DNA of 64,000 nt from the NCBI RefSeq assembly GCF_000321415.2, contig NC_019902.2:2294001-2358000 (forward strand), read 5' to 3'. Position 1 is the stretch's first letter. Each line of letters begins with the position of its first letter. The position numbers and the translations under genes are program-made. The notes under the pieces were generated by a model, which saw only the letters and a program-made list of their open reading frames with translations, had not been told where the DNA came from and ran no database searches. Shown in pieces: positions 2,895 to 23,271 of the stretch. This DNA is from Thioalkalivibrio nitratireducens DSM 14787. Its GTDB lineage: Bacteria; Pseudomonadota; Gammaproteobacteria; Ectothiorhodospirales; Ectothiorhodospiraceae.

Positions 2895-2970
2895 GCCGGT
2901 GTAGCTCAGCTGGTAGAGCATCTGATTTGTAATCAGAGGGTCGCGGGTTCGAATCCTGTCGCCGGCTCCA
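2895..2970 (+). tRNA. tRNA-Thr (anticodon TGT)
   Basis: 76-base cloverleaf with encoded CCA. The acceptor stem is GCCGGTG/CGCCGGC (one U-G pair), the D-arm contains AGCTCAGCTGGTAGAGC, the anticodon stem TCTGA/TCAGA encloses TTTGTAA (anticodon TGT, reads ACA), and the T-arm contains GGTTCGAATCC. Confidence 0.97.
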
Positions 2971-3366
2971 AACACTTGATCGGACATGGACAGCTCCGAT
3001 CGCGACCGGTCGCTGAAGGCAGCGGCCGCACAGCGCCAGGGACCGACCCGGGACCGCGTGGACGGTCTCGCCGGCACCCAGGTTACGGGCCACGGACAGC
3101 CCAAGCGTAGAAGATCACGACCGGCCACGTGAAGCGCAATGCGTTCCTGAACCGCGGAAGCTTATCCGCCGAACCCCGGATGCGTGAAATGGCCTCTGTG
3201 CCGTCCAGCCTGCGGCCACGTCCTGGAAGCCACGCAACAGTCATTGTTCAGCTGAGCACGCGAAGCGATTGGATTGGGACAGTCCGTTCAGATTGCCGAA
3301 TGAAAGCGGCCAGACGGATGGCGTAAGAGCCTCGCCGCAGGCAGCGTTCAACAAGGCGACACTTAA
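2971..3366. other. Non-coding stretch after the tRNA pair
   Basis: About 400 bases in which I see no convincing gene, RNA or repeat. Short open frames here have no recognisable product. A MITE target site begins at its right edge. Confidence 0.5.
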
Positions 3367-3374
3367 TTTTCACG

Positions 3375-3532
3375 GGGAGCATTACACTTTTGTCCCGACC
3401 CTGTGACAGTGCGGTTTTTGGCCTAGCGCCATCACATGGATACGGCGCAAAAATATCAACATGTTACGGCGCGCACGCTGAAATATCAGCCACTTGCACG
3501 GATTTCGTCTGGGACAAAAGTGTAATGCTCCC
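3375..3532 (+). mobile_element. MITE copy A, perfect terminal inverted repeats, 8-bp target duplication
   Basis: 158-bp element without coding capacity. It begins GGGAGCATTACAC and ends with the exact complement GTGTAATGCTCCC; the perfect inverted repeat spans 22 bp on each side (3375-3396 and 3511-3532). It is flanked by the direct repeat TTTTCACG (3367-3374 and 3533-3540), a clear 8-bp target duplication. A second copy in opposite orientation lies at 62551-62709, and the same terminal sequence, with one change, opens the DUF4338 element at 60031. Confidence 0.9.
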
Positions 3533-3570
3533 TTTTCACGAAGCCTCCGCCGCGAGCAGGCCACCGTTCT

Positions 3571-3808
3571 GCGTCGGTCGTCATTGCGAGCGAAGCGCGG
3601 CACTAATGCGCGCAGCGCATTGAACAGCCGAAGGCTGGCCCGCAGGGTGAGCGCAGCGAATAATCCAGGCGGCGTTGGGAGAACTGATGCCGTCTGGATC
3701 GCCACGTCCTGCCACGCTGCGCTCGCGGCTTAAGGCCTCGCTTCTCGCGATGACGTTGGTAACGAAGACGGCCCGTTCCAATTCGCGGAGCTTCCGTGAT
3801 AATCAGGA
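3571..3808 (+). repeat. Long intergenic repeat, copy A (inverted relative to 39318-39530)
   Basis: Block starting GCGTCGGTCGTCATTGCGAG, containing hairpin-forming GCGCGCAGCGC and CGATGACG elements, and ending CTTCCGTGATAATCAGGA. The reverse complement of essentially the whole block, with small indels, recurs at 39318-39530. It is non-coding and ends just beyond the 3' end of the SF1 helicase. Confidence 0.8.
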
Positions 3809-3827
3809 GGCGACATGTCTTCGATAC

Positions 3828-5972
3828 TCACGACAAAGACCTTGATCGCGGCCCGACCAAAAACGCGCTGCCCTGTCCGAAATAGCTGATGAACACACGA
3901 CTCATGGCACGCGTGACGGCGACGTGGAACAGCGCCCGCTCGGTGAGTTCACCGGCCCTGCGTTCGGTCGGATCCTCGGAGCTTTCGATGGCCTGCCGGA
4001 GCGGGATCACACCCTCATTCACGGCCGCCAGCATCACGTGGCGGAACTCCAGCCCCTTGATCCGGTGCATGGTTGCAAGCCGCACGCCCTCCTGCGCACG
4101 GTTGTCGGCCAGCTTGCGGCTCAGTCGAATGCAGCCGGAGCCACGTGTCCTGAGTCCCCTCTCGTAGCTCTCCACCAGTGCGTTGGTTCGGGCAACCACG
4201 CAGATGTCCTTCAGCTCCGCGCCTTCCTGTTGCAAACCCCTCACCTGCTCGGCGAGCCAGTCCAGCTCCTCCTCCTGGCCGGCAAACCCGCGGACGGTCG
4301 GCGGCACCCCATGCACTAACGACCGGTAATCGCTGGTGGAATCCTCGCCTCCATCGAGGTCATCGATGGGCTCTCCTTCCAATACCGCGACCGCGAACCG
4401 CCGGGTTTCCTCGGTGGTGCGGTAATTGATCTTCAGCTTCCGGCTGCGGCCGCGCACCTCGATTCCGCAGGCCCTGAGCGTGTAGCGGCGGCGATAAATT
4501 CGCTGATGACCATCCCCCACGATGAAGATGTCGTTCGCTCCCGGCGGGACCAACAGTCGGATCAGGCGCATCACCTGCGGCCCCATGTCCTGGGCCTCAT
4601 CGACGACCACGGCGTCATACGGCAGGTAGGCCTTGCCGCTCGCCAGCAGGTCGGCCGCATCCTGGGTGGCGTCCTCGCTGCATTTCAGGCCACGCTGATG
4701 CAGTTGGATCCGGAGTTCCTCGAACACGCTCCAAAGCGCGGCGCGCTGTGCACGGGTGAGCGGCACCCCGCGTCCGACGCGTTTCGCACGGAAATACTGG
4801 GCGCGATCCGTGACCCGCTGCGGCAGAATCACCCGATCCCACTCCTCGCGGTAAAAACTCTCGGGGAGCGGTGGATCGGCAGGGCGTGCATCCAGCGCGG
4901 CACGCCAGCAGGCCTCGTACTGCGGATTGCCGTCGTAAACGATCTGATGCGGGTAGTTCTGCCGCTTGAGGAAACGGCTCACCCACGCATCGATGTGGAC
5001 GACCTCGATCCGTTCCAGCTCTTCCAGCGAGCAGATCTTGCGCAGGTTCTCGGCGATATCGGTGGCCAGGTTCGCGGTGAACGTGGTGAACAGCACCTTG
5101 CGGTCCGGTGCGCTCAGCGCGTGGCGCACGAGCCAGCGCGCGCGGTGCATCGCGACCACCGTCTTGCCGGTGCCCGCGCCGCCGAGCACCCGGATCGGAC
5201 CGTTGACACGCCAATGCACGAGCCGACGCTGGGACGGGTGCAGAAAGACCCGCCACTTCTCGAGCGGAGCCACGAGCATCGCTTCGAGTTCCTGGTCGTT
5301 CTCGACGACGTGGAAGCTACGCTGGCTCTGCTCACGCGTCAGTGCGGTCGCGAAGTCTTCCGTGTCCACCGCCTCCGCCTTGGCCGCGTACTCCTGGATG
5401 ATCTCCTGCGGATCGCTGCCCGCCGCGATCAGATACAGCGCCTCGAAGGCTTCCTTCGGAAGCAGCGTCTCGAGGCGTTCGAGCTCCTCTTCGGTCTTCA
5501 CTTCCTTCACCCGTGCCAGCCGATCGTGCGGCACCCCGATGCGCAGGAGTTCGCGCTCCCGCAGGCTGAACAGGGGCGGCTGCGCAACTTCAACCGCCGG
5601 GGCCCTCTCCGGAGTCAGGACCTCAGAGTCCGCTTCGAACAACTGGAGGCTTCCGGTTTCCGGGTGAACCCCGCAGGTGTGGCGGCGGGCCCAAGCGTAG
5701 GCATCATCGTGCTTGTCCACCCACAGCAGCACGTACACGTCGCCCTTTTCAGGGCTCAGTACAATCCCGCGGTAGTCCTGGTCGATGCGAACCGACCGGA
5801 AGTTCGCGTCCCGCGCATCGTTGATCCTCTCGTAGTTGATACCCGAACTGAACGGATCGTTGCGGAACTTCGTAACGAAGTTCATCACCTTTTTCTGCTG
5901 GGCCTTCGGGATCGTCGCGTAGGCCTGCAGGAAATCCGTCGAGATGGCAACGGTGGGTCTCATTTCGCTCAC
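3828..5972 (-). CDS. SF1 (UvrD/Rep-type) DNA helicase with RelE/ParE-like N-terminal domain
   Basis: 714-residue predicted ATP-dependent helicase. Residues 1 to about 100 resemble the RelE/ParE fold (FLQAYATIPKAQQKKVMNF, DANFRSVRIDQDYRGIV, VYVLLWVDKHDDAYAWA). After a linker come SF1 motifs: Walker A GGAGTGKT (264-271), Walker B VVVDEAQD, motif III-like IVGDGHQRIY, motif IV INYRTTEETR, MHRIKGLEF and the C-terminal VAVTRA. The likely start is GTG at 5972, with GGAGA a few bases upstream; an in-frame ATG lies nine bases on. It lies downstream of the 2141-residue helicase on the same strand, separated by a REP array, and the two are probably one functional unit. No antitoxin gene is adjacent, so the RelE-like part more likely binds nucleic acid or a partner than acts as a free toxin (inference). 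Confidence 0.85.
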   Translation of the reverse strand: MSEMRPTVAISTDFLQAYATIPKAQQKKVMNFVTKFRNDPFSSGINYERINDARDANFRSVRIDQDYRGIVLSPEKGDVYVLLWVDKHDDAYAWARRHTCGVHPETGSLQLFEADSEVLTPERAPAVEVAQPPLFSLRERELLRIGVPHDRLARVKEVKTEEELERLETLLPKEAFEALYLIAAGSDPQEIIQEYAAKAEAVDTEDFATALTREQSQRSFHVVENDQELEAMLVAPLEKWRVFLHPSQRRLVHWRVNGPIRVLGGAGTGKTVVAMHRARWLVRHALSAPDRKVLFTTFTANLATDIAENLRKICSLEELERIEVVHIDAWVSRFLKRQNYPHQIVYDGNPQYEACWRAALDARPADPPLPESFYREEWDRVILPQRVTDRAQYFRAKRVGRGVPLTRAQRAALWSVFEELRIQLHQRGLKCSEDATQDAADLLASGKAYLPYDAVVVDEAQDMGPQVMRLIRLLVPPGANDIFIVGDGHQRIYRRRYTLRACGIEVRGRSRKLKINYRTTEETRRFAVAVLEGEPIDDLDGGEDSTSDYRSLVHGVPPTVRGFAGQEEELDWLAEQVRGLQQEGAELKDICVVARTNALVESYERGLRTRGSGCIRLSRKLADNRAQEGVRLATMHRIKGLEFRHVMLAAVNEGVIPLRQAIESSEDPTERRAGELTERALFHVAVTRAMSRVFISYFGQGSAFLVGPRSRSLS

Positions 5973-6035
5973 ATCGGTCTCCGGTCGATCATGGTGGCCG
6001 AATCGCAGGCGTGCCGGTCAGCGGTGTCGAATGGC

Positions 6036-6297
6036 GGATGACGGGCTTCGCCCTCTTCCGCCCTACAGGGGGGCGTCGCCGCGCCGGGGGCCGGCGGATG
6101 ACGGGCTGCGCCCTGTTCCGCCCTACAGGGGGCCATTGCCGCGCTGGGGGCCGGCGGATGACGGGCTGCGCCCTCTTCCGCCCTACAGGGGGCCATTGCC
6201 GCGCCGGGGGCCGGCGGATGACGGGCTGCGCCCTGTTCCGCCCTACGGTGGCGAGGGTGGTCGTGTAGGGTGGAAGAGCGAAGCGTCATCCGCCATG
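6036..6297. repeat. Tandem REP array, four units of 60 bp
   Basis: Units begin GCGGATGACGGGCT at 6036, 6096, 6156 and 6216, each containing TTCCGCCCTAC and GC-rich spacers with an exact 60-bp period. The last unit is followed by an inverted GTAGGGTGGAA...TCATCCGCC half-site, as in a BIME-type pair. The array occupies the gap between the two helicase genes. Confidence 0.92.
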
Positions 6298-6312
6298 CTG
6301 AGTTTGTCAGGT

Positions 6313-9300
6313 TCACGGCGTAAGCCTGCCCGTCAATTCGGCGATCACCGCATCGTCCAGACCGTCCAACACGGTCCAGCCCAGCCGCTCCAGGCCCGCG
6401 CGCCCCGATTCGTCCACATCCGCCACCACCGCAATCCGCTGGTCCCGCCACAGGAGTTCGACCTCGGGCAGCACCGCGCCCGCCTCGTCGACCAGCTCGA
6501 TCCCGACCTCCGGTGGCGGCACCCCGGCATCGCGCAGCCGAAGCACACGTTCCCCAAACAACGAATTCTGGGCGATCTCCTGCCATTGCAACGCATCGCC
6601 GTCGTCGGCCTCGGACCCCTCCCCGGACGGTTCAGCCGCCCGAAACACCACGCCGTACAGCCCCTGCTGGATGCCCCGAGCAGAAGCGAGCGTCAGCCGC
6701 GGCAGGAACTGAAGCAGGTTCGCCGCACCCCAGAACATGCCCCAAAGGGTCTCGAAATCCTTGTCCTGCCGGGCCTGCTCATCGTCCATCCCGAGGTGCA
6801 CTCGGATGTCCGCTTGCAACCCCTGCAAATCGCCCCCGGCGGCCGCCTGCATCGCACTGCGTGGAAGGCAGACGCCGACATCGATCCCCGCCATCGGTGT
6901 GTCGTCACCGCCGGTTGCAGGCAGCAATCCACCCAGGATTCTCGGGTCCTGCTGCGTGCCACTCCAACCGGCGTGCACCGCCTCCGGGAACCGCGACTGC
7001 ACGTCCTCAAGCAAGGCATTCCGAAACGCGGGGTCCTGCACGCTGCGCGAATCCAGCCACCCCAATGCCCGGGACAACGCGGCAAACCGCAGCCTGTCCA
7101 GGTTCTCCGTGTCGCCCGCCAAATAAGCCAACAACCAGCCAAATGGTCCCTTGTCGATGAAGCCGCCATAGGCCAAATAGGGATCCCAGCCACCGCTGGG
7201 CGCGAGTCGGGTGAACAGCGTCTGCATCGTCGCCTGCTGCCCCGTCTTCAACAGCTGTGCCGCCGGGTTGACCTGCTTCATGCCCGGCATCGGCAGCGTG
7301 TGCCAGCTCAGACTCCACACCCGGAAGCGGCCGCTGTCGAGCAAGGCCTGACGCTTCAGGGTGTCGTCGTCCGCCTTGTTCCAGTGATACTGGAACCCGT
7401 CCATGAAGACGGCCACCGACAGCAGACCCGGCGCCTCGCGTACCGGCCACAGCACGAAATCGGGCTTCGTCTTCACCGCAGCAACACCCTGCCCCGGCCC
7501 GAGCTGCACCTGCGGTTCCACTTTCCAGGCCGCGGCGCGCTGCCCGGCACGCTGGGGCAGCACCGACAGAAAGAACCCGGATTTGCCGTGCACGAGTTGG
7601 GGCGAGAGCGTCACCCCGGGCGCGTTGGCCAGCGCGTCCACGAAACGCTGCTCGAGCTCGCTCTCCAGCAGCGCATTGATGTCCACCGACGCGAGCCCGT
7701 CGATCGGCTGGAGGGTGTCGGCGGCGGCCAGGATCTTGCCCAGGATCTCCTCGGCCGCCTTGCGCGAGATTTCGTCCATCCGGCGGCTCTCGCGGTAGGC
7801 GAGCAGGCAGCGGTAGCAGCCATCGCTGGTTTCGTCTTCGCGACACTCGCAGCGACTGACCACCTCAAAGGCCGCCCGCAGCAAGTTCATCAGGTTATCC
7901 GGCTGGCGCAGCAGCTCCTTCAGATAACCGGTACCGCCCGGCACGCTGTCGAACAGCACCAGAAAGTGCTTGCGGCTCTCGCCGCCCGCGGGCTCGGACT
8001 GGTGCGCCACCTGGATATGACCGACATCGCCGCGGAAGAAGCGGCGCAGGCCCAGGTTCAGTGCCGCAATCAGGGAGTGCAGCCGTGTTCCCGACGACCC
8101 CACCTCGGCCAGCGGCAACAGGATCCGCACCGCCTCGGACTCCAGCTCCCGAAACAGGTACAGGCTGTCGAAATAGTCGGCTTCGCTCTCCTCGGCACCC
8201 GGCTTGCGCAGCTTGCAGTCGTAGGCATGCTGGAAGGATGCGCGCTCGCGCCCGCCTTTGCGCCGCACCTTGCCGCAGTGCCGGCACAACTGGAATCCGG
8301 GCCGCGAGGCCAGTTCGCCGGCCACCGCAAACTCGTGGGATTCCACACCCGGCTGGCCGAAGTTCACCTCGCGCAGCTTCACCCGCGGCAGGTATTCGAA
8401 ACCGAACGGCAGTTCCTCCGATGCCAGCCGGTAGGCCTTGCCCACACTGGACAGGGGCACGTCCACCAGCATCTGGCGCTGGAAGAACGCCGGCGTGCGC
8501 TGGTCGCTGTCATCGCCGATGCGGCTGCCTCGGTCATCCGCGGTGGCAAACACCTGGCGCAATTTCAGCAGCGTGCGTTTGCGCCCGGCATCGGCCCATT
8601 GCGGGCTCCCGCAGCGCGGACAGACCGTGTGCGCATCTCCGCTCTCGGTCACGTTCTCCATGTAGTGGCAGCGGTCGCAGAGCCGCCACTCCTGCGCGCT
8701 GCTCACCGAGAGATCCACCTGATCGATCTCCACCCGCCGGCCAACCGCGTAAAAGCGGTTCATCGGTGCCAACTCACTCAGCGCAGCCACCGCCGGGCGC
8801 TGCATTTCAAAGTTGATGCGCTCGTAGCGACGTCCCGACTCACCCTCGTCCCGCTCCGCCTGAGTCACGCGCCGCAGGATCACCGAGTGGATGGTGACTC
8901 CCTCTTCCGGGAACGCGTAGTTCGGCAACAGGCCCTCGTCGGTAAAGAAATTCAACGTGGGCTTGCCATTCATTCGCCGACGCAGCGCCATCAGCGCGCC
9001 GCGTTCGGCCAGCACGGCCTCGAGTTCCTCCCGGACCCGATCGTCCTGGGGTTGTGACTCCAGACGTTCCTTCTGTTTCTTCAGACGATCGATCCGGGCC
9101 GTAAGACTCTTGCGCTCCTGCACCAGTTGGTGCAGCCGGTTCACCAGCCGGACCGCCATCCCGGAGGTTCCGCCGCCGCCAAACAGGAAGGTGCCCAAGT
9201 GCTCGCGCGACTCGTCCGGAAGATCCGGGAAGAAACCGAGAAAGCTGCGCAGGATCTCGGCACGGTGGCGTTCCACGAACTCAAGCAGTGACAACGGGAA

Positions 9301-12300
9301 GCGACCGCCGGCCTCCGCTTCGACCCCGTTCAGGGTTTCCTGCAAGTTACCGGGAATCGCGGAATCGTCGATCCCGGATGCGGCCCAGCGATCGAAACAG
9401 TAGGCGATGAGCTGCCGCTCAAGGACCGCGGTCGCCTGAAGGAACACGCCCGGCGGACGCACCTCGCCCGCCAGCATCGCGAGCGGATCGGCGTAGAAAT
9501 AGAGATCGTGTTTGTGTGCGTTCGCCAGGGTCACGGTCAGCGCATTGCCGTCCCGCCTTCCGGCGCGGCCGATCCGCTGGAGGTAGTTCGCCTGCCCCGG
9601 AGGCACGGAACACAGCAGCACCGCAGAAAGATCGCCGATATCGATCCCCATTTCGAGCGTCGGGGTGGCGGAGAGCAGGTTCACGTCCCAGGGCGCGTCG
9701 CCATCGATGAAGGAATGCTCCACCATGTGACGCGTCTCGCTGTCGAGCAGCGCAGTGTGCTCCGCCGCGACCAACCGGTGCAGCGCCCCGCTCGTGCCGC
9801 CGGAGGCTGGCAATGCAACCGTGGACGGCTGGTAGATGCCCGCGCAAGGGCTGCGCAAGCAGGGCATCTCGGTCCAGTCGCTGAGCTCCTGTCGTGGCAC
9901 CTGGATCTGATGACCGCAGCGTTCGCAGGTCAGCGCCGCCACCGCCGTCGTGCAGATCCAGCGCTCCGGGTCCAGACCCCAGACCGAGTCACCACCCACC
10001 TCTTGTTCGATCAGGAAACCATCCTGCGTGAGCTGCCCGAGCACCCGCTGGATCACCTGGCGGTATTCGGCAGAGGCCAGCACCGCATCGCCCACCGCGA
10101 GCGTCTTGTCGAACCAGTCCGCATAGCCCGAGCGCCCATCGGCCGCGAGTGCGGTGAACGACCGCCCCACCCGGCCCAATGTCACGAGCGCCGGCGGAGC
10201 GGCCGCACCCCCGTAATTCGGCATGTGCGGGGTGCGGTAGAGCGCGTAGGGTTTGCCGCGATCCTGGATGTAGCCATCCAGCATCGGGTGATAAAAGGCA
10301 CCGCCCACGCGCATGCGCCAGAGGAACCCCAGCAGGTAGCGCAGCACGGGCGTCTCACCGATCCCGCGCAAGGAGCCGATCTCCTCCGAAAGCCGCTGGG
10401 CCAGGCGCGTTGCGGACTCCCGGAGCGCCCCCGGATCCGGCCCGACGGCCGCGACACGGGAACGTTCCAGCGTGCGCCCGATCCGGGCACGCAGGCCGAA
10501 CGCCTGCAACACCTCCCAGGTCAGGCGCTGTTCCACCCACCCGGGAACGGCGCTGTGCGGCGGGAGCTGACCCTGGACTTTCAGATATTCGTAGTCCCGA
10601 AGCCACTCCATGTTCGGTGCGATGAAGGTGCCGACGAAGCGCGCCTCACTACCGGTGCGGTTGCGCCAATAGCGCGGCATCTCGCTCGCGACCACCGACA
10701 GCGGCAGGCCCTCCCCCTGCGCCGTCACGAAACGCGCGATCGCCCCGCGGATCAGCGTGCTGTAGGTTCGGGCTCCGAAGAATCCTGCCCGATGCGCGGC
10801 GTCCTGCACCGCGTCGGAGAATGCGATCAGCTTGCGGTGGTCGTTGTATGGGCTGGCAAACAGCCGTCCGATCAGCACGCTCGACAACGACGCCGCGCGC
10901 GAGCCGATCAGGCTCAGCCCCTCGTGCGCGCCGCAGAACGGGCAGTCGTGGTGGCTGCGCTGGACGTTCAGCTCGCCCCGCGCCTGCGTGCGGCGCATGT
11001 TGGGCTCCCAGACCGGCACGACCGGGGCATCGCCCTTGCAGTGCGGGCACTGCGTCGCGCCAGCCTTGGGAAGCAGTTGCCCGCACTGCGGGCAGATCGC
11101 CCCCTCGATGCCCTTCGGCTCGGCCGGCGGTGTCCCCTCCAGCGGGAACAGCAGGCACATTTCCGGGTGATTGCCGAAATAGGTCCGGTAGATCGCTTGC
11201 AGGTCGGTCTCGAGCCGCCCTTCGTCCGCCTTGCGCACCGATAGCCAGCCAGTCGCATGACATTCGCGGCAGTGCACCACCGGCAAGTGCAGCGGCGATG
11301 CGAGGTCCGTCAGGTCGTCGGCGAAACGGAGCATCGGGCGGACTCCGACGTTCGCGACCAACCGGCTCAGCTCGCGCAGCCAGAGCTGCAGGCGCAGGGT
11401 CACGAAGGGCTGGCCCGGATCGTCGGTGCTCGTCGCGTGGGGATCGTTCGGACGGCGAGCCCACGAAACCAGTGCCAGGAGGCTGTCGAGCATTTGCCGC
11501 GCCTGTGCCGGCTCGATTCGGAACCGCTGCGCCCAGTCGGCCACCACGGCATTCACATCCAGCAACCCCGGTGCGTGCTCCAGCAACTCGCGGAACGCGC
11601 GGCACTCGCGCAGCCGCTCAGCGAGCTGAAAGCGGGCCTGCATCGCCACGGCCGGATCGCGTGCATCCAGCGCCGGGGCGTCACCCCCAAACCAGCGCAT
11701 CGCCAGCTTGCGCAGGTTGTCCACTGCGGCGTCCTGCACCTGCGCATAGCCGCCACCGTAGGTGCCGGTGGTGGGCCAGTTCGTGAAGCGGACCTCGGCG
11801 CCTGCCAGGAACTCCTCCGGGGTTTCCCGATCCTCCATCACCACCGCATCGGCATCGAAGGGGCTCGCGAACACCTGGGAGGCGTAGTCGATCAGTTCCT
11901 GGCCCGCCGACTCGCCACCCAGGGTCGCCGACGTCCCGACACAGGCAAGCCCTTCGCCCGGCAGCAGTCGATCGCGCAGGCGGCGGACCAGACAGGCGAG
12001 ATCGGTACCCTGGGCACCGTCGAAGGTATGCAGCTCGTCGACGACGAGATAGCGCAAGCGGCCCGGTTCGTTATGGCGCCACAGACGCTGGTCCCGCGGA
12101 CGCAGCAGCAGGAAGTCCAGCATCTTGTAGTTGGTGAGCAGGATGTCCGGCGGGTATTCGCGCAAGGTCTCGCGGCAGGTGATCACGCTGTCGCGGCTCA
12201 TCACCTTGTGCACCGAGGGTCCGCTGTCACCCACGTAGAGACCGACGCTGACCCGCCCGCGCAAGCTCTCCCGATCCCGGTGGATGTCGCGGGCAAAACG

Positions 12301-12738
12301 CCGGGCCTGATCGGCCGCCAACGCGTTCATCGGGTACACGATGACCGCCTTCACGCCCGGCTCCGGGCGCCCGGCGCAATAGTCGAGGATGGGCAGCGAG
12401 AAGCACTCGGTCTTGCCCGAACCGGTTCCGGTTGCGACCAGCGTGGAACGGGGGTTCGGACCGCAGAGGCGTTGGAAGGCCTTGACCTGGTGGCGATACG
12501 GGGTGAACGCCAGCTCGATCCGCTCGAATGGCAGCGTCGCGCCGGGCTCCATGCGCCGGAACGGTAGCCCCAAGCCCAAGTACGGACCCTTGAAGATGGC
12601 CTCCGGCTCGGCGAGGAGATCGTCGAGCATGGTGCCGCCGTCGTCGCGCCGGAACCCAGGCGTAGTCATCGGGAAGCTTGCGTACAGGAAGCGACGGATC
12701 GCCTCCTGCAACTCGCTCGCGACGATCGAGGGGATCAT
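6313..12738 (-). CDS. Giant DEAD/DEAH helicase with DUF1998 and C-terminal nuclease-like domain (DruE-like)
   Basis: 2141 residues. The SF2 helicase core has Walker A GTGSGKT near residues 104-110, DELH Walker B near 233, SAT-type motif LLSATPTLEMGID and motif VI QRIGRAGR near 1054. Several zinc-ribbon-like cysteine pairs are scattered through the middle (CPQCGQ, CPHCKG, CPFCGAH, CERCGH, CPRCGS). A DUF1998-type four-cysteine module (CECRED...CYRC, about 1628-1650) follows. Near 1756-1784, KPDFVLWP plus VAVFMDGFQYH fits a PD-(D/E)XK or Vsr-like nuclease core. Length and domain order match DruE-type proteins of Druantia defence systems and related DUF1998 helicases. No other Druantia gene is adjacent; the only close neighbour on the strand is the SF1 helicase. 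The family assignment is firm; the anti-phage role is inferred. Confidence 0.85.
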   Translation of the reverse strand: MIPSIVASELQEAIRRFLYASFPMTTPGFRRDDGGTMLDDLLAEPEAIFKGPYLGLGLPFRRMEPGATLPFERIELAFTPYRHQVKAFQRLCGPNPRSTLVATGTGSGKTECFSLPILDYCAGRPEPGVKAVIVYPMNALAADQARRFARDIHRDRESLRGRVSVGLYVGDSGPSVHKVMSRDSVITCRETLREYPPDILLTNYKMLDFLLLRPRDQRLWRHNEPGRLRYLVVDELHTFDGAQGTDLACLVRRLRDRLLPGEGLACVGTSATLGGESAGQELIDYASQVFASPFDADAVVMEDRETPEEFLAGAEVRFTNWPTTGTYGGGYAQVQDAAVDNLRKLAMRWFGGDAPALDARDPAVAMQARFQLAERLRECRAFRELLEHAPGLLDVNAVVADWAQRFRIEPAQARQMLDSLLALVSWARRPNDPHATSTDDPGQPFVTLRLQLWLRELSRLVANVGVRPMLRFADDLTDLASPLHLPVVHCRECHATGWLSVRKADEGRLETDLQAIYRTYFGNHPEMCLLFPLEGTPPAEPKGIEGAICPQCGQLLPKAGATQCPHCKGDAPVVPVWEPNMRRTQARGELNVQRSHHDCPFCGAHEGLSLIGSRAASLSSVLIGRLFASPYNDHRKLIAFSDAVQDAAHRAGFFGARTYSTLIRGAIARFVTAQGEGLPLSVVASEMPRYWRNRTGSEARFVGTFIAPNMEWLRDYEYLKVQGQLPPHSAVPGWVEQRLTWEVLQAFGLRARIGRTLERSRVAAVGPDPGALRESATRLAQRLSEEIGSLRGIGETPVLRYLLGFLWRMRVGGAFYHPMLDGYIQDRGKPYALYRTPHMPNYGGAAAPPALVTLGRVGRSFTALAADGRSGYADWFDKTLAVGDAVLASAEYRQVIQRVLGQLTQDGFLIEQEVGGDSVWGLDPERWICTTAVAALTCERCGHQIQVPRQELSDWTEMPCLRSPCAGIYQPSTVALPASGGTSGALHRLVAAEHTALLDSETRHMVEHSFIDGDAPWDVNLLSATPTLEMGIDIGDLSAVLLCSVPPGQANYLQRIGRAGRRDGNALTVTLANAHKHDLYFYADPLAMLAGEVRPPGVFLQATAVLERQLIAYCFDRWAASGIDDSAIPGNLQETLNGVEAEAGGRFPLSLLEFVERHRAEILRSFLGFFPDLPDESREHLGTFLFGGGGTSGMAVRLVNRLHQLVQERKSLTARIDRLKKQKERLESQPQDDRVREELEAVLAERGALMALRRRMNGKPTLNFFTDEGLLPNYAFPEEGVTIHSVILRRVTQAERDEGESGRRYERINFEMQRPAVAALSELAPMNRFYAVGRRVEIDQVDLSVSSAQEWRLCDRCHYMENVTESGDAHTVCPRCGSPQWADAGRKRTLLKLRQVFATADDRGSRIGDDSDQRTPAFFQRQMLVDVPLSSVGKAYRLASEELPFGFEYLPRVKLREVNFGQPGVESHEFAVAGELASRPGFQLCRHCGKVRRKGGRERASFQHAYDCKLRKPGAEESEADYFDSLYLFRELESEAVRILLPLAEVGSSGTRLHSLIAALNLGLRRFFRGDVGHIQVAHQSEPAGGESRKHFLVLFDSVPGGTGYLKELLRQPDNLMNLLRAAFEVVSRCECREDETSDGCYRCLLAYRESRRMDEISRKAAEEILGKILAAADTLQPIDGLASVDINALLESELEQRFVDALANAPGVTLSPQLVHGKSGFFLSVLPQRAGQRAAAWKVEPQVQLGPGQGVAAVKTKPDFVLWPVREAPGLLSVAVFMDGFQYHWNKADDDTLKRQALLDSGRFRVWSLSWHTLPMPGMKQVNPAAQLLKTGQQATMQTLFTRLAPSGGWDPYLAYGGFIDKGPFGWLLAYLAGDTENLDRLRFAALSRALGWLDSRSVQDPAFRNALLEDVQSRFPEAVHAGWSGTQQDPRILGGLLPATGGDDTPMAGIDVGVCLPRSAMQAAAGGDLQGLQADIRVHLGMDDEQARQDKDFETLWGMFWGAANLLQFLPRLTLASARGIQQGLYGVVFRAAEPSGEGSEADDGDALQWQEIAQNSLFGERVLRLRDAGVPPPEVGIELVDEAGAVLPEVELLWRDQRIAVVADVDESGRAGLERLGWTVLDGLDDAVIAELTGRLTP

Positions 12739-12765
12739 GCCACCGCATCCCGCCGCGCGTGGGAA

Positions 12766-12928
12766 TGGCGGATGACGGCCTTCGGCCTCTTCCGCCCTAC
12801 CGAGACCCGCGTAGGGCGGAAAAGCGCAGCGTCATCCGCCATGCACCGCCGGGCGAAGCCGTAAGCCTCCGGGTAACCCGAAATCCCGAAACGGCGGATG
12901 ACGGCCTTCGGCCTCTTCCGCCCTACCT
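12766..12928. repeat. REP hairpins upstream of the giant helicase
   Basis: Three REP units: GGCGGATGACGGCCTTCGGC...CCCTAC, then an inverted GTAGGGCGGAAAAGCGCAGCGTCATCCGCC, then another forward unit ending at 12928. They sit between the helicase start and the 3' end of the Fic gene. Confidence 0.9.
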
Positions 12929-12959
12929 CTTGGCCTACCTCTTGGCTAACGATGGCCAT

Positions 12960-14132
12960 TCAAAGAGGCTCTGTTCCGCGGTTCAGGATATCGAGATAAC
13001 CGCCGTACACGAACAACCGCCCGCGCTGCTTGCCCGTGATTTCCCGGACAATCCCGAGGTCTGCAAGATGCTGTATGGACTTCGCGATGGTCGGCGCGGA
13101 GAGGCCGAGCCTCTGTGCGGCGTCGGGGATTCCGACGAGCGGCTTCTGCTGAAGAAGTTGGTGCACACGGAGCGCGGATGCGGCCGGACGACCGAGGCCC
13201 TCGATCCGCTCGCGGTCGGCCTCGAACAGACCCAGAATCTCGCGCGCTGCCTCGGCCGCCTGCAGCGAGGTCTCCGCGATGCCGTCCAGGAAGAACTCGA
13301 TCCAGGCCTCCCACGCGCCGCGTTCCCGAACCTGCTGGAGCAGATCGTAGTACTGCCTGCGATGCGCCTTGAAGTAGAGACTGAGGTACAGAACGGGTTC
13401 CTGCAGGATACCCTGCGCGCAAAGCAGCAAGGTGATCAGGAGCCTGCCGACGCGCCCGTTCCCGTCCAGAAACGGGTGTATGGTTTCGAACTGCACATGA
13501 ACCAGACCAGCCTTGACCAGAGCCGGAATCTCCGGCGTGTCGGCATGAATGAAGGCTTCGAGGTCAGACATCAGGTCCAGCACACGGTCGGGTGGAGGCG
13601 GGACGAACAGCGCGTTTCCCGGCCGCGTACCGCCGATCCAGTTCTGCGAGCGGCGAAATTCCCCCGGCTGCTTCGTGCTGCCGCGCCCCCGGGCAAGCAG
13701 CGTCTCGTGGATTTCCCGGATCAGCCGCAGCGATACCGGAAACCCGTCTCGAATCCGTACAAGACCATGGTCCATTGCCGCGACATAGTTCGAGACCTCC
13801 TGAACATCGTCCAGAGGAACGCCGGGGGCCTCTTCGCTCTCGAAGAACAGGAGGTCCGAAAGAGACGATTGCGTCCCCTCGATCTGGGACGACAGAATCG
13901 CTTCCTTGCGGACATACATGTAGAGGAACAGCGGCGTGTCCGGCAGGATGGACGTGACCCCGTCGAGACGTCCGAGCGCGCGGTTGGCGTTTTCAAGCGG
14001 TCGATAGAGGCGATCCATCCGAATGGCTGGATCCGGCGGCAATGCAGGCGGCACAAAGGCCTCCACCCGCTCACCCGCGGTCGAGACCGTCACCCGTTGC
14101 CCGAGGCGGGACCGTTCTGGTGCTGAGATCAT
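12960..14132 (-). CDS. Fic family protein, self-inhibited class II, with C-terminal winged helix
   Basis: 390-residue predicted AMP-transferase of the Fic fold. The catalytic motif HPFLDGNGRVGR (residues 219-230) is canonical. The inhibitory helix motif SSQIEG (81-86) lies N-terminal to it, which defines class II Fic enzymes, and sequence around residues 176-183 fits the flap. Residues ~315-375 (RVHQLLQQKPLVGIPDAAQRLGLSAPTIAKSIQHL) form a winged helix-turn-helix. The architecture is that of Shewanella SO_4266 (SoFic). The ATG at 14132 has AAGGAG upstream at a rather long spacing. It may regulate itself through the winged helix (inference). It is probably a separate unit from the helicase pair because REP hairpins intervene. 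Confidence 0.92.
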   Translation of the reverse strand: MISAPERSRLGQRVTVSTAGERVEAFVPPALPPDPAIRMDRLYRPLENANRALGRLDGVTSILPDTPLFLYMYVRKEAILSSQIEGTQSSLSDLLFFESEEAPGVPLDDVQEVSNYVAAMDHGLVRIRDGFPVSLRLIREIHETLLARGRGSTKQPGEFRRSQNWIGGTRPGNALFVPPPPDRVLDLMSDLEAFIHADTPEIPALVKAGLVHVQFETIHPFLDGNGRVGRLLITLLLCAQGILQEPVLYLSLYFKAHRRQYYDLLQQVRERGAWEAWIEFFLDGIAETSLQAAEAAREILGLFEADRERIEGLGRPAASALRVHQLLQQKPLVGIPDAAQRLGLSAPTIAKSIQHLADLGIVREITGKQRGRLFVYGGYLDILNRGTEPL

Positions 14133-14224
14133 GGCCGGAAAACACTCCTTTTCCCGAGCATGCCCTAACGAAGGGATAGGAGCAAATCCTTTCTCTAGAT
14201 CAGCTCTAACGAAAGCTTCCTTCC

Positions 14225-14448
14225 GTAGGGCGGAAAAGGCCGAAGGCCGTCATCCGCCGTCCGGCGGTGTGCGTGTCCCCGGCTGGGTGGCCATTCGAAC
14301 GCCGCGATGGCGGATGACGCTGCGCTCTTCCGCCCTACCGAGGCCCGCGTAGGGCGGAAAAGGCCGAAGGCCGTCATCCGCCGACCGGCGGTGTGCGCGT
14401 CCCCGGCTGGGTGCCCATTCGAACGTCGCAATGGCGGATGACGCTGCG
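14225..14448. repeat. REP cluster, interrupted at its right end by IS1182
   Basis: Alternating GTAGGGCGGAAAAGGCCGAA and reverse-orientation REP units separated by near-identical ~50-bp spacers containing CCGGCGGTGTGCG and CCCCGGCTGGGT. The final unit breaks after GACGCTGCG at 14448 and resumes as CTATTCCGCCCTAC at 16334 beyond the inserted IS. Confidence 0.92.
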
Positions 14449-16328
14449 AGACTGTGAAAGTATTCGCCCCGAGTCTCGGTTCGGGGGTGGGGGCTTGGTA
14501 GAATTGGCGCACGCTGTGATGCCCCCCCCACGTGCATGGGGCGATTGAGGAAAGCCGATGCTGAGCGAGCCTGAGTCTGCACCACCGGAAGCGTTGACCC
14601 TGTGGCCGTCCCCGGAGGACGGTGGACCCCCGGCGGCGGCCGGTCCGGAGCCGCGCCCGCCGTTGCCCCGGTCGCGGCGGTACAAGGAAGGGCCGTCGGG
14701 AGAGCAGCCGCTGCTGCTGCCGGCGTGCGTGGACGACTACGTGGCGGCGAACCATCCGGTGCGGGCGATCGCGGCCTACGTGGAGATGCTGGACCTGGAG
14801 CGGTTGGGCTTTCGGCATGCCGGGGGTGCGCTCACGGTGGGGCAGCCGGCGTACGCGCCCGGCGATCTGCTGAAGTTGTATCTCTATGGCTATCAGGAGC
14901 GGGTGCATTCCAGCCGGCGTCTGGAGGCCGAGTGCCGCCGCAACCTCGAGGTGATGTGGTTGCTGAACGGGCTGCGCCCAAACTATCACACGATCGCTGA
15001 TTTTCGTAAGAACAACGCCGCGGCACTGAAGGCGGCGAACCGGGAGTTTGTGCTGCTGTGCCGGGAGCTGGGGCTGATCAGCGGGACCCGGGTGGGGGTG
15101 GACGGGAGCTTCTTCCACGGCAATGCGAGTGCCGCCAGCGTCAAGACCAAGAAGCAGTTGGAAGCGGAGCTGGCCGCACTGGAACAGGACATCGACGGCT
15201 ACTTGGCAGCGCTGGAGCGAGGGGACGCCGACGCAGCGGCGGCCGAAGCGACAACGGTCAGCGCGCAGCAGCTTGCGGATCTGCAGGCGCGCGCGCAGCG
15301 CCGGCGAGAGCAACTCGAGGAGTTGGCCCGGACCGGCGAGACCCAGATCTCGCGGACCGATCCGGACGCCCGGCGCCTGAGCAAGAACGGGCAGAAAGTG
15401 ACCGGCTACAACGTGCAGAGCGTGGTCGATGACCAGCACCACCTGATCCTGACCCACGAGGTCACCAACGCCGGAAACGACCTGGGCCAACTGGTGCCGA
15501 TGGCGGAACAGGCCCGGCAGATGCTGCTCGATGGGCAGACCACGGAAGCCGCACAGCCGCTCGAGGTGTTGGCGGATGCCGGTTATTTCACCGAGTCCGA
15601 CATCGCGGCCTGCGCGTCGCGGGGCATCGTGCCGTATGTGCCGGTTCCGGAGAAGACCGGTGCGGCCGAGCGGGCCGGCCGTCTGAGCGCCCGGGAGTTT
15701 GTCTACGACGCCGAGCAGGACCGGTACCGCTGTCCGGGTGGGGAAGCCCTGCATCCGTACGGCCAGCCGGATACCCGTAACGGCGTGAACTACCGGCGCT
15801 ATCGCAGCCGCGCGTCGGTCTGCCAGTCCTGTCCTCTGAAGGCGCAGTGCCTGCCGCCGGCCGGCAAGCGTCGGGAGATTCTCCGCTCCGAGCACGCCGA
15901 GGCGGTGGAGCGGCATCGGGAACGGATGGCGGCGGCGCCGCAGGTGATGCGCCAGCGCGCGGCGCTCTGCGAACACCCGTTCGGAACCCTGAAGCGCTGG
16001 CTGGGGTGGGACCACTTCCTGGTACGGGGTTTGACAAGGTGCGCGGTGAGATGGCGATGATCGTGCACAGTTACAACTTCCGCCGCGTGCTCAGCATCCT
16101 GGGGGTTGCGGCCTTCATCGCCTACTGCCAGGCGCGGGGCGTTGCGCGCGGCTTTCTTGCGGCTTGGTACGGGCTCCTCGAGCGCCTCTGCCAGCCGTTC
16201 TGGGGTCGCGATGACCCGTGGCCCATGGCCGGGACCGTTAGCGGCTCGCACCGTCCACGCGCGGCTCCGTTCGTCCCAGTGCGTTTCACGCCTGCTCCCT
16301 AGCATCGGTGCCCATTCTTTCACGGTCT
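14449..16328 (+). mobile_element. IS1182-family insertion sequence
   Basis: 1,880-bp element. Terminal inverted repeats are AGACTGTGAAAG (14449-14460) and CTTTCACGGTCT (16317-16328), 11 of 12 matching. The flanking direct repeat CTGCG (14444-14448 and 16329-16333) is the probable target duplication. Removing the element and one CTGCG restores a REP unit GACGCTGCGCTATTCCGCC that differs at a single base from other copies. The element carries one transposase gene, which is frameshifted. Confidence 0.88.
14558..16302 (+). pseudogene. IS1182-family DDE transposase, frameshifted near its C-terminus
   Basis: The frame from ATG at 14558 (preceded by GAGGAAA) encodes about 500 residues: PACVDDYVAANHPVRAI, YAPGDLLKLYLYGYQ, NYHTIADFRK, VGVDGSFFHGNAS, KVTGYNVQSVVDD, VLADAGYFTE, the Cys cluster SVCQSCPLKAQCL and HPFGTLKRWLGWDHFLVRG. 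It then terminates early at 16060. The expected continuation FDKVRGEMAMIVHSYNFRRVLSILG is present in the next frame (to 16302), so one base appears lost near 16025-16032. The catalytic core is intact. No programmed slippage signal is evident, so this is a mutation or an assembly error. Confidence 0.85.
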
Positions 16329-16329
16329 C

Positions 16330-16602
16330 TGCGCTATTCCGCCCTACCAGGGCCCGCGTAGGGCGGAAAAGGCCGAAGGCCGTCATCCGCCGACCGGCGG
16401 TGGGCGAGTCCCCGGCTGGGTGCCCATTCGAACGCCGCAATGGCGGATGACGCTGCGCTCTTCCGCCCTACCAGGGCCCGCGTAGGGCGGAAAAGGCCGC
16501 AGGCCGTCATCCGCCGTCCGGCGGTGTGCGGGTCCCCGGCCGGGTGGCCATTCGAACCCCGCAATGGCGGATGACGCTGCGCTCTTCCGCCCTACAAACT
16601 CT
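16330..16602. repeat. REP cluster downstream of IS1182
   Basis: Four to five alternating REP units with the same spacers as the cluster left of the IS. The first unit is the right half of the interrupted hairpin. Confidence 0.9.
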
Positions 16603-16621
16603 CGTCCGCCTTACGCTGTAG

Positions 16622-17026
16622 CTACTGGGCGGCTGAGCCAATGCTGGGCGCGATGTCCGTGCGGGCGAAATCGTCACCCTTGAAGAGCAGCGGCTGTCCA
16701 TTCGTGCGCGCCAGCGCATAAGCGAAACAGTCACCATAGTTCAGGCCGGCCGGGTGTCGCCCCTTGCCGTACTGGCTGAAGGCGCGGCGCGCCTCCTTTG
16801 CTTGCCGAAGATCCACCGGCACGCAGTCGATCGCCGCGCGATCGAGGAAACGGTCGAGCAGATGCAGCCCCGCCGTGCCGTAGCGCACCTCGATCACGAT
16901 GGACGTCTCGACCCAGTTGGCTACCGAAAGCAAGCGCGACTCCGCAGCCTCGATGGCTTCGTTGAAAGCGTGCCGTTCCGGCTCGTCCTGGAGAATGGCA
17001 ACCAGCGCCGATGTATCGATGACCAT
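16622..17026 (-). CDS. vapC: PIN-domain toxin, VapC family
   Basis: 134-residue PIN-domain ribonuclease, the toxin of a type II toxin-antitoxin pair. The N-terminal [12 protein letters not shown] carries the first acidic metal ligand (Asp4). Further motifs are the conserved Glu in VRYGTAG-flanking sequence and NYGDCFAYALA with the second acidic cluster, ending PLLFKGDDFARTDI. Its ATG overlaps the vapB stop by one base (TGATG), so translation is coupled to the antitoxin. VapC enzymes cut specific tRNAs or rRNA; the target here is unknown. Confidence 0.93.
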   Translation of the reverse strand: MVIDTSALVAILQDEPERHAFNEAIEAAESRLLSVANWVETSIVIEVRYGTAGLHLLDRFLDRAAIDCVPVDLRQAKEARRAFSQYGKGRHPAGLNYGDCFAYALARTNGQPLLFKGDDFARTDIAPSIGSAAQ

Positions 17027-17280
17027 CAGCGCGGGAGACCATGCTCGTCGTAACCGAGGATCTCCTCCGCACTGCGGCGATCGCGAACCGGCAATGCCGC
17101 GCAGGCACGCGCGATCTCGTCCAGCTCGTCCGCCAGCCGCGTTCCCCCACGCTCACGGCGCACCCGGTCCAGGCGATCCCGCATCGCTTGAATCACCGCC
17201 TCGGTTTTGGTTTCGCCCGTGGCCTGGGCCAGCTCTGCTGCCAGCCGATCCGCTTCTGGATTTCGGATATTCAGCGCCAT
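17026..17280 (-). CDS. vapB: VapB-type antitoxin (transcription factor family)
   Basis: 84-residue antitoxin. [37 protein letters not shown] is a typical PSK/VapB ribbon-helix-helix N-terminus for DNA binding, followed by a C-terminal tail ending [11 protein letters not shown] that would wrap the toxin. The start at 17280 is preferred over an in-frame start 33 bases upstream because MALNI matches the family. It likely autorepresses the vapBC operon with VapC. Confidence 0.9.
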
Positions 17281-17352
17281 GTTTTCCCTACACGCGTGCA
17301 GACAGCTACACACTAAGTCGCGACAGCAATTGCCGTCAACCTGCGCGCCGGT

Positions 17353-17386
17353 CGGCGGATGACGGCCTGCGGCCTTTTCCGCCCTA
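17353..17386. repeat. Single REP hairpin
   Basis: GGCGGATGACGGCCTGCGGCCTTTTCCGCCCTAC between the vapB start and the MNT gene. It occupies the place where a HEPN partner of the nucleotidyltransferase would be expected. Confidence 0.9.
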
Positions 17387-17400
17387 CCGGGGCTGTCGAA

Positions 17401-17691
17401 TCAGACATGGATCGCATCCCGCTCAACGTAGGGGCGCAATTCGTTGCGCAGCGCCTTCTCGGTGACCAGGTCCACCCGCGCCCCCAACAAATCCTCCAGG
17501 TAGAACTGAACGCCGAAGTAGCGCCTGGATGTCGCAGGCCCGTCAAAAGCGACGAGAATATCCAGATCGCTGTCCTCCAGCGCTTCACCTCGGGCCATGG
17601 AACCGAACAGTGCGAGGTCAGTCACTCCAAAGCGTTCTGCAAGGGTCGCTTTATGGCTGCTCAGCAGCCGGACGGCTTCCTCGCGTGTCAT
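17401..17691 (-). CDS. Minimal nucleotidyltransferase (MntA-like), without HEPN partner
   Basis: 96-residue polymerase-beta-type nucleotidyltransferase. The active-site signature LFGSMARGEALEDSDLDILVAF (GS at 30-31, Asp42 and Asp44) is intact. ATG at 17691 is chosen because GGAGG lies five bases upstream; an in-frame ATG at 17703 has no spacing for a ribosome site. Proteins of this family act as antitoxins by adenylylating a HEPN RNase toxin (HepT). A hepT normally follows directly, but here only a REP hairpin and vapBC follow, so this looks like an orphan antitoxin. Confidence 0.85.
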   Translation of the reverse strand: MTREEAVRLLSSHKATLAERFGVTDLALFGSMARGEALEDSDLDILVAFDGPATSRRYFGVQFYLEDLLGARVDLVTEKALRNELRPYVERDAIHV

Positions 17692-17864
17692 CGCGTCCTC
17701 CATCTCCCTCGTAAAGAGGCCCCATTGGCTACAGCGACAGTTAAACATACTGCCACCGGCGCCGGTTACTCCAACCACGGTTCGTCAGCATTACCTGGGT
17801 CAGAAATGCTGCTTCGACGACCTACAGACCCGTCCTACAGCGCTGCCCCGCGCCCCAAGAACTT

Positions 17865-18101
17865 GTAGGGCGGAAAAGGCCGAAGGCCGTCATCCGCCGA
17901 CCTGGGGTGGGCGGCCCCCCGGCCGAATGGCCGTTCGAACGCCGCAATGGCGGATGACGCTGCGCTCTTCCGCCCTACCAGGGCCCGCGTAGGGCGGAAG
18001 AGGCCGAAGGCCGTCATCCGCCATCCGGCGCCAGGATTGCCGCAGGCGCCGGGGATGCGCGAACGCCGAGCGGCGGATGACGCTGCGCTCTTCCGCCCTA
18101 C
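17865..18101. repeat. REP cluster (four units)
   Basis: Alternating GTAGGGCGGAA and TTCCGCCCTAC units from 17865 to 18101, replacing the 5' end of a ParE-like toxin remnant. Confidence 0.9.
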
Positions 18102-18120
18102 GGGTCGCCCGGGACGCGGG

Positions 18121-18309
18121 CCCGCGTTCTTTTACGCCAATCCACCCGGTTACCGACTGCGGCCAGAACTGGGCGACGACATCCGCTCCTCCGCCTACGG
18201 AAACTACGTAATCTTCTTTGTGGCGTTGCCGGAGGAAATCACGATCATCCGTATCCTCCACGGCGCCCGGGATATTCCAGCGATCTTGACGCCCGGCGAT
18301 AGCCTGTGA
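18121..18309 (+). pseudogene. C-terminal remnant of a ParE/RelE-family toxin
   Basis: The frame reads GYRLRPELGDDIRSSAYGNYVIFFVALPEEITIIRILHGARDIPAIL before its stop, the characteristic C-terminal half of ParE toxins. The N-terminal half and any antitoxin are absent; upstream sequence is a REP hairpin. It is on the opposite strand to the intact ParE-like gene nearby and not a tandem copy of it. Confidence 0.75.
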
Positions 18310-18354
18310 ATCCCACCTTCACACCGCGATCGTCTGCCGACTCTCTGGCGGGAT

Positions 18355-18535
18355 CAACGGTGTCGACGCCGTGCCAGCCAACACCTGCATCCAGCGCCGC
18401 GGAACTTCCTCGGCATCCCAGCCCTGAACCCGCATCGGCGTCGATGCAGACCACGAAATGTAAATGATTCGACATGACGGCTTAGGCCGCGAGGTCCACC
18501 GCGAACACTCCGGCCCACTGCTGCTTGCATTCAAG
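18355..18535 (-). pseudogene. Decayed fragment of a REP-associated tyrosine transposase
   Basis: The minus strand reads WAGVFAVDLAA, a stop, AVMSNHLHFVVCIDA, a frameshift, then VQGWDAEEVPRRWMQVLAG. This matches residues of the intact RAYT at 19231-20370 (GVFAVDVAAYAVMSNHAHLVV, VQGWDAEEVLRRWTQVFSG), with one stop and one frameshift. Confidence 0.8.
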
Positions 18536-18537
18536 GC

Positions 18538-18834: not shown

Positions 18835-19007
18835 GATCGAATCCGATGCTCCATATCTTCGTTCGATATTAGGCGCCCACGGCGAGAATCGTCGAGACCG
18901 CGCTCGACCATGCGCTCAAAAGCAAGTTCCCGCATGATTTCTTCATAGCTCGCATCTTCCGGCTGCGAACGGATTACCTCAGTCATCTTTTCTTTCACGC
19001 TCGACAT
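18822..19007 (-). CDS. Antitoxin partner of the ParE-like toxin
   Basis: 61-residue acidic protein, MSSVKEKMTEVIRSQPEDASYEEIMRELAFERMVERGL and so on, typical of small antitoxins that precede RelE/ParE toxins. ATG at 19007 has GGAG six bases upstream and is preferred over an in-frame ATG at 19025. The 13-bp overlap with the toxin and gene order support a toxin-antitoxin operon. The DNA-binding fold is not obvious from sequence. Confidence 0.82.
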   Translation of the reverse strand: MSSVKEKMTEVIRSQPEDASYEEIMRELAFERMVERGLDDSRRGRLISNEDMEHRIRSWQK

Positions 19008-23270: not shown

Positions 23271-23271
23271 G

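Follow-up and report, generated by a model that had tools for sequence, protein, structure and literature searches.

The window analysed here, a 64,000-nucleotide stretch of Thioalkalivibrio nitratireducens DSM 14787 (positions 2294001-2358000 of its 4.0-Mb single-contig genome), very probably carries an anti-phage system of ARMADA type II, in whose operon 12.3 kb of other genes separate armB from armC. An earlier note on this sequence had described two adjacent helicase genes as one defence system distinct from the known Druantia types. Because gene order, strand, near-full-length identities and motifs match ARMADA type II, these two genes are, as judged from their sequences, armC and armD of that system, known since 2025. 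Comparison of 83 loci found that the junction between armB and armC (B-C) is a recurrent insertion site, with armA-armB (A-B) and armC-armD (C-D) as tight pairs.

Gene organisation and assignment to ARMADA type II

In the main text of Bell et al. (bioRxiv 2025; PMC12458937), ARMADA type II is a four-gene bacterial anti-phage system with the strict order A-B-C-D on one strand. It consists of a BrxHII-like ArmA, a PglX-like ArmB with an NPPW motif, a YprA-like ArmC with a Zn-binding canopy and a C-terminal Vsr-type nuclease, and a RelE-GajB-like ArmD. The window holds counterparts of all four, which belong in part to helicase superfamilies 1 and 2 (SF1, SF2):

31476-34340, minus strand: armA, BrxHII/RapA-like Swi2/Snf2 helicase, 954 residues; 52% identity to Escherichia coli ArmA over 953 columns; matches DrmD and BrxHII models; GLGKT at 130-134
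25085-30106, minus strand: armB, PglX-like N6-adenine methyltransferase, 1673 residues; 53% identity to E. coli ArmB over 1668 columns; Pfam Eco57I match; NPPW at 983
6313-12738, minus strand: armC, YprA/DruE-like SF2 helicase with MZB domain and putative C-terminal Vsr-like nuclease, 2141 residues; 41% identity to E. coli ArmC over 2170 columns
3828-5972, minus strand: armD, RelE/YoeB-like domain (residues about 1-115) fused to a GajB/UvrD-like SF1 helicase, 714 residues; 52% identity to E. coli ArmD over 710 columns

The pair armA-armB lies upstream of armC-armD on the same strand, so that the order is A-B-C-D, and 12.3 kb separate B from C. Aligned each to its own counterpart, ArmA to ArmD are 52, 53, 41 and 52% identical over nearly their full length to the proteins of E. 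coli operon L015, which has the same gene order and comes from a different strain from the one tested in PMC12458937. Identities to a Nostoc plasmid operon (L017) are 46, 47, 39 and 47%, and it is by such pairwise identities that the window ArmC is placed in ARMADA II. The residues mutated in the published work (ArmA K136, ArmB N971, ArmC K110/D234 and ArmD K266/D454; PMC12458937, main text) correspond in L015 to the motifs expected of them, which the window proteins also possess. The likeness extends to all four genes, their order and strand, protein sizes, catalytic motifs, the RelE-UvrD fusion and the position next to a tRNA gene. The window differs in its 12.3-kb B-C cargo, in an insert of repetitive extragenic palindromic (REP)-like repeats and a RAYT-like transposase gene at A-B, and in REP-like repeats at C-D, whereas adjacent arm genes of L015 overlap or sit 2 bp apart.

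The individual gene readings of the earlier note stood. Both open reading frames (ORFs), of 2141 and 714 residues, are intact neighbours on the minus strand. The larger product, called a DUF1998 helicase, matches Pfam DEAD, Helicase_C and MZB (PF09369, which we take to be the former DUF1998) above cut-off, and the smaller, called an SF1 helicase, matches UvrD-helicase and UvrD_C. The two also form a unit that is very likely for defence and is not Druantia. What fell was the claim of a two-gene system, since the window also contains the A-B half, at 25085-34340 and thus beyond the part that the note had described; the pair is the C-D half of a four-gene system. That armC and armD form a novel system on their own, with armA and armB as unrelated neighbours, is in our judgement extremely improbable. 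Such a reading gains from the tightness of the pair, the closest in the survey below, and from the 12.3 kb that separate armA-armB from it in the window. Against this, each of armA and armB shares about 52% identity with its counterpart in the E. coli operon, where the order is the same, an armB match was found elsewhere in the genome for 11 of 14 survey loci searched, and deletion of any single gene of the four abolishes protection in E. coli, as reported in the main text of PMC12458937.

Comparison with other defence systems

Eight ORFs of the window were scanned with PADLOC, in line with the search for defence-system models that the earlier note had proposed. DruE models matched 6313-12738 down to an E value of 1.4e-96, over parts of its length, and GajB models matched armD. 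No DruH or other type-specific Druantia partner (DruA-D; DruM/F/G) was detected among the eight, as the note had stated, and Druantia membership was rejected. Gabija membership was likewise rejected, the best GajB match of armD reaching only 3e-28 and GajA being absent among the eight ORFs. The separation of the pair from Druantia held, while its novelty did not, as it belongs to ARMADA II.

A Druantia variant, with DruE and an unusual partner, is hardly credible despite the DruE label. A fragment of a DruE-like gene that adjoins the E. coli ARMADA operon is only 23-34% identical to the window ArmC over two parts, compared with 41% over the full length to ArmC. Druantia type III (DruH-DruE) resembles the window in its giant YprA-family helicase with a Zn-binding domain; among the scanned ORFs the window has a RelE-UvrD partner in place of DruH, and its helicase has Vsr-like residues at the C-terminus, with no PLD match listed for ArmC in the Pfam scan. 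From DISARM class 1 the window differs in that its YprA helicase is one long protein containing the MZB domain, and in that no drmB- or drmC-like product occurs among the eight ORFs. An apparent new two-gene system is thus filed under a newly described family and a false discovery is avoided; the case also shows that DruE and GajB annotations mislead for ARMADA.

Maintenance of the arm genes

All four arm ORFs are intact. In comparison with the sister species G013, the ratio of nonsynonymous to synonymous substitution rates (dN/dS) is 0.082 for armA, 0.069 for armB (first 1040 codons only), 0.104 for armC and 0.092 for armD. In the alignment of ArmC sequences, from which those with a stop, an unplaced start or fewer than 1850 residues were dropped beforehand, the Walker lysine and the D, E and H of DELH are kept in 74 of 74. 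The same 74 sequences all conserve a Vsr-like set in the C-terminal part, E1696, D1760, D1780, H1785, D1792 and R1796; together with the account in the main text of PMC12458937, our reading of these residues points to a putative Vsr-type nuclease. Purifying selection, as estimated from the low dN/dS, and the conserved catalytic residues argue for a maintained system.

A decaying remnant, in which the 12.3-kb insertion, the REP arrays and an insertion sequence (IS) mean that the locus is no longer a system, appears quite unlikely. The IS element, two RAYT-like elements and REP-like repeats at three junctions would suit such decay; the four intact ORFs, dN/dS of 0.07-0.10 and an enlarged B-C junction in 30 of 58 survey loci speak for an ARMADA system that is maintained. 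Two points nevertheless weigh against a jointly working operon. The A-B (1.37 kb) and C-D (340 bp) junctions are enlarged here besides B-C, so that co-expression of the window arm genes is not assured; and no sigma-70-like promoter was found in the stretch scanned, 3000-13000, which spans armC-armD. The features of these two junctions are:

30108-31485, minus strand: 1.37-kb A-B insert of REP-like repeats and a RAYT-like ORF (178 residues, 30411-30947) with a weak Y1_Tnp match (E = 0.014, below the Pfam cut-off)
5973-6312: C-D gap with a four-copy REP-like repeat of 60-bp spacing, which takes up most of the 340 bp between armC and armD

The sister genome G013 lacks the A-B insert, its armA match ending 11 bp before its armB match starts. 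A 307-residue ORF at 30110-31033 was considered as a fifth gene and is probably not a gene (coding score -69, no plasmid match).

The B-C junction is a recurrent insertion site

The survey comprised 83 loci, namely the best 80 of 561 confirmed stretches from an ArmC alignment scan of genomes and three viral-contig loci found with ArmD; because only the best 80 were kept, it is not a random sample. Flanks were cut at 10 kb or at contig ends, so that large B-C gaps are under-counted, and in loaded loci such as L037, L057, L095, L102 and L105 only the last part of armB is seen, at the locus edge. The B-C gap was at most 150 bp in 25 of 58 measurable loci and exceeded 700 bp in 30, reaching 9.4 kb under the 10-kb flank limit. 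The A-B gap was at most 150 bp in 37 of 39 loci and exceeded 700 bp in two, and the corresponding numbers for C-D were 68 and two of 72; armD thus follows armC closely on the same strand in most measurable loci, the kind of conserved pairing that the earlier note had named as support for a unit. B-C accounts for 30 of the 34 gaps above 700 bp (Fisher p = 6e-7 against A-B and 3e-11 against C-D, with loci treated as independent).

No armD was found in 11 of the 83 loci. Nine of these have less than 400 bp of contig after the armC frame, and in L084 the contig is 4.4 kb long and the frame is broken; L047, with 9.9 kb after armC and no armD, weighs against a constant C-D pair. No armB was found in 25 loci, and a genome-wide search of 13 of them and L047 gave an armB match in 11 of 14, the three misses (L039, L040 and L103) all being metagenome-assembled genomes (MAGs). 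Most E. coli junctions are closed: a 2-kb junction query is covered to at least 80% at a single place in 486 of 518 records. Of the 40 E. coli junction matches listed, one (H38) extends over 3.3 kb and contains an IS3 element, and three match only part of the query. In L101, a Longimicrobiales MAG, armB is apparently inverted about 8 kb downstream of armD instead of preceding armC, assuming that contig C1 of G058 is the locus contig.

A cargo slot at B-C was not found in the main text of PMC12458937 (supplements outside scope), and the junction as a defence-rich cargo slot is new as far as the literature searched shows. BREX loci likewise carry other defence genes inside the operon, according to the parts of two reports consulted (BrxU between brxC and pglX, PMC8565348; auxiliary nucleases, PMC12839542). 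BREX is a different core system, and the ARMADA II gaps concentrate at one junction.

Cargo genes of the B-C slot

The slot of the window contains the following features:

12739-25084: B-C slot, a 12.3-kb cargo region separating armB from armC
23544-24908, minus strand: SIR2_2 protein (PADLOC PDC-S25), 454 residues, 48.6% GC
21558-22328, minus strand: Mrr_cat restriction endonuclease, 256 residues, 44.6% GC
19231-20400, minus strand: RAYT-like Y1 transposase, 389 residues, read by eye, with a weak Y1_Tnp match (E = 0.021, below cut-off) and an 88% DNA match in the G013 slot
16622-17026, minus strand: PIN-domain toxin-like protein (PIN, E = 7.8e-20)
14558-16060, plus strand, antisense: IS transposase (DDE_Tnp_1, DUF772), absent from the G013 slot
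12960-14132, minus strand: SoFic-type Fic adenylyltransferase (PADLOC SoFic, E = 5.2e-123), 99.5% identical in G013

A small ORF upstream of the PIN gene (17026-17280) may encode its antitoxin. The arm genes have 64-67% GC, compared with the lower values of the SIR2_2 and Mrr cargo. The synonymous divergence (dS) of the Fic gene from G013 is 0.023, against 0.11-0.20 for the arm genes, so that the history of this cargo gene is more recent than theirs.

The slots of 30 survey loci, the window and two relatives together hold 125 ORFs, of which 104 (31,655 of 36,362 residues) run in the arm direction. They were called with a home-made gene caller trained on arm genes, which in the window overlooked the Mrr ORF with its low GC and cut the ORFs of SIR2 and Fic too short. 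The bulk-scan alignment included 97 of the 99 survey cargo ORFs, two of the shortest, both from L102, having been dropped. Single PADLOC scans covered 30 of the 99, picked mainly among the larger ORFs of 20 of the 30 loaded loci and run without a non-slot control set; 22 of these 30, in 16 of the 20 loci, matched at E of 1e-15 or lower, in a database whose models extend to broad families, methyltransferases and Fic among them.

Several slots carry recognisable sets of known systems: the Mokosh genes MkoA and MkoB in Simplicispira (L030), the Gabija genes GajA and GajB in Desulfobacula (L067), LeoA and LeoB in Stutzerimonas (L063), and in Amphritea (L037) the Zorya II genes ZorA2 and ZorE2, which flank an OmpA-domain protein. 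In Pseudomonas dryadis (L097:4484-9793) a HEC-01A/DUF4276 pair is followed by a PsyrT/DprA-like (DNA_processg_A) pair. Other cargo includes AbiEii (L056, L059), an AbiLi-like protein (L088), SIR2 (L050) and a type IV enzyme in Thioalkalivibrio ALE14 (L068). Weaker defence evidence comes from a C5 methyltransferase (L057) and Fic (L091, and antisense in L102). PADLOC gave no match in four of the 20 loci (L075, L077, L095 and L105), for two of which Pfam gives GmrSD_N (L075) and a Schlafen domain (L105). Among the ten loaded loci outside the single scans, L026 has a helicase (PbeA-like, E = 2e-16), and L060 and L099 have a Peptidase_M78 domain; the cargo of L049, L106 and L070 showed no clear family in the scans made.

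The cargo genes probably act on their own, sharing only position and perhaps expression. A stronger proposal, which we put forward tentatively and hold to be somewhat doubtful, is that B-C would be a specific, selected loading site for second-line defences between two fixed cassettes, A-B and C-D, with the cargo mostly co-directional and hence co-expressed or triggered upon a breach of ARMADA. The slot offers a simple address for seeking defence genes not yet described, a role that genes embedded in BREX loci have already played. Four cargo ORFs had no significant family match in the libraries tried (L095:1130-5248, L106:2788-3642, L049:2289-3020 and L037:5106-7586) and are candidate unknown defence genes; those of L049 and L095 overlap the armB stop by a few bases.

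The RelE/YoeB-like domain of ArmD

The RelE-like N-terminus that the earlier note had read in the SF1 helicase was confirmed by structure prediction: an AlphaFold2 model of 120 residues (pLDDT 90.9) matches RelE, YoeB and YafQ toxins in the PDB, the first matches of the fold search being YafQ, RelE, RelJK and YoeB. Pfam gave no RelE match in ArmD at E of 0.001 or lower, and phmmer with the single domain found no match among PDB sequences. A profile search of PDB sequences gave YoeB as the best match (E = 0.0048). Within 70 ArmD sequences E48, R62, R68 and H88 are each 98% conserved, Y92 92% and W94 97%, and the profile alignment puts the first four on the conserved Glu, Arg, Arg and His of Staphylococcus aureus YoeB.

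Some of the evidence weighs against a specific YoeB-likeness. The YoeB sequence match is weak, with unrelated chains next at E = 0.036, and the fold search lists many RelE-superfamily members, ParE and HigB included, with close scores. As the fold alone cannot separate YoeB-like from ParE-like domains, we rely on the residue pattern; to our knowledge, ParE toxins lack the Glu/Arg/Arg/His set. By their order, without direct alignment, E48, R62/R68 and H88 would correspond to Glu46, Arg59/Arg65 and His83 of E. coli YoeB. In the parts consulted of the study of that toxin on the ribosome, Glu46 is the general base, His83 the general acid and Arg59 (legend) or Arg65 (text) the transition-state stabiliser (PMC3814384).

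Because the Glu/Arg/Arg/His set is near-invariant in a RelE/YoeB fold, the N-terminal domain of ArmD is predicted to be an active ribonuclease. According to the main text of PMC12458937, the ArmD point mutants described are in the Walker motifs and do not address attack on RNA by the RelE domain. ARMADA defence is reported there to be non-abortive, which weighs against cell killing by the RelE domain as its main effect. The conserved residues, new for ArmD as far as the literature searched shows, open a direct test of whether ARMADA attacks RNA.

A hypervariable block in ArmB

25640-26082, minus strand: armB hypervariable block, residues about 1342-1489, putative target-recognition domain; no DNA match here in G013 or, over nearly the same stretch, in G003

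The identity of ArmB in the window to that in G013 is 92-100% for residues 1-1050, 64-80% for 1051-1350 and 36-48% for 1351-1500, after which it returns to 90-94%; in comparison with G003 the same block falls to 38%. For E. coli and Enterobacter ArmB the identity is as low as 30% at about 1351-1450, and it dips again, to 36%, near 1101-1150. E. coli ArmB and that of a Klebsiella pneumoniae plasmid stay at 78-100% without a deep drop, which weighs against a target-recognition domain. By analogy, the block nevertheless looks like an exchanged target-recognition domain, as would fit a self-marking methylase, and is new as far as the literature searched shows. Different histories of armB and armC were also considered and rejected, the drop between the window and G013 being confined to the C-terminal part of ArmB with the hypervariable block.

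Proposed mechanism

We infer that ArmB would mark self by methylating host DNA at a motif that its variable block determines, after which ArmA, ArmC and ArmD would act on unmarked invading DNA. ArmA and ArmC may serve as SF2 motors that engage and remodel this DNA, with ArmC cutting it through its Vsr-like nuclease. ArmD would combine a UvrD-type motor with a RelE/YoeB-type ribonuclease whose likely substrates are phage transcripts or RNA close to the DNA being engaged; alternatively, this ribonuclease may serve as a fail-safe. At B-C, where a modification half (A-B) would meet a nuclease half (C-D), insertions are tolerated and other defence genes have gathered.

Repeats, tRNA and possible borders of the island

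REP-like repeats are abundant between genes of the window (5973-6312, 12750-12930, 14224-14448, 16329-16595, 17865-18118, 21003-21468, 30108-30400 and 31220-31440), and matching repeats are present in the sister genome. The RAYT-like transposases at 19231-20400 and 30411-30947 may spread them.

2895-2970, plus strand: tRNA-Thr (tgt), with its 3′ end facing armD

A tRNA-Thr gene with a different anticodon (cgt) stands in the same relation to armD in G013. The armD side faces the 3′ end of tRNA-Thr in both species, as that of an island inserted at tRNA genes would, and tRNA-Thr is a possible border. The 3′ end of tRNA-Thr has no att-like second copy in the window, where only the tRNA itself was found, and no integrase lies inside the window, the nearest being about 17 kb beyond its right end. 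Beyond armA are a SNF2 helicase gene (34714-37611, plus strand) and a Fic gene (39598-40848, minus strand); the island may extend rightward of the system.

RelE-UvrD proteins in other genomes

Among 240 genomes of the same class, eight, counting that of the window, have an ArmD match at E of 1e-80 or lower. Five of the seven others have an adjoining ArmC on the same strand, with about 35-85 bp between match ends. An armB is present in four of the seven, with a B-C gap of 3.6 kb in G276 and 1.4 kb in G187, a closed junction in G114 and a different contig in G147; in G234 ArmC stands at the contig start, and armB was not found in the genome. RelE-UvrD proteins without ArmC in G161 (45-46% identity), G138 (35%) and as a second copy in G276 (36%) weigh against taking the fusion as a mark of ARMADA, since such proteins exist outside it too.

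In G161 (L118:2461-9516) the RelE-UvrD protein follows 58 bp after a 1621-residue Sacsin/NOV_C protein, in a genome without an armB or armC match, and the pair is possibly a separate two-gene defence unit. At L119:6216-8901 and L120:5542-10137, RelE-UvrD proteins (33-35%) each follow a protein of 198-200 residues without a Pfam match; the one in L120 matches the C-terminal part of a DruE-like protein at 28%, and a NERD-UvrD helicase comes next.

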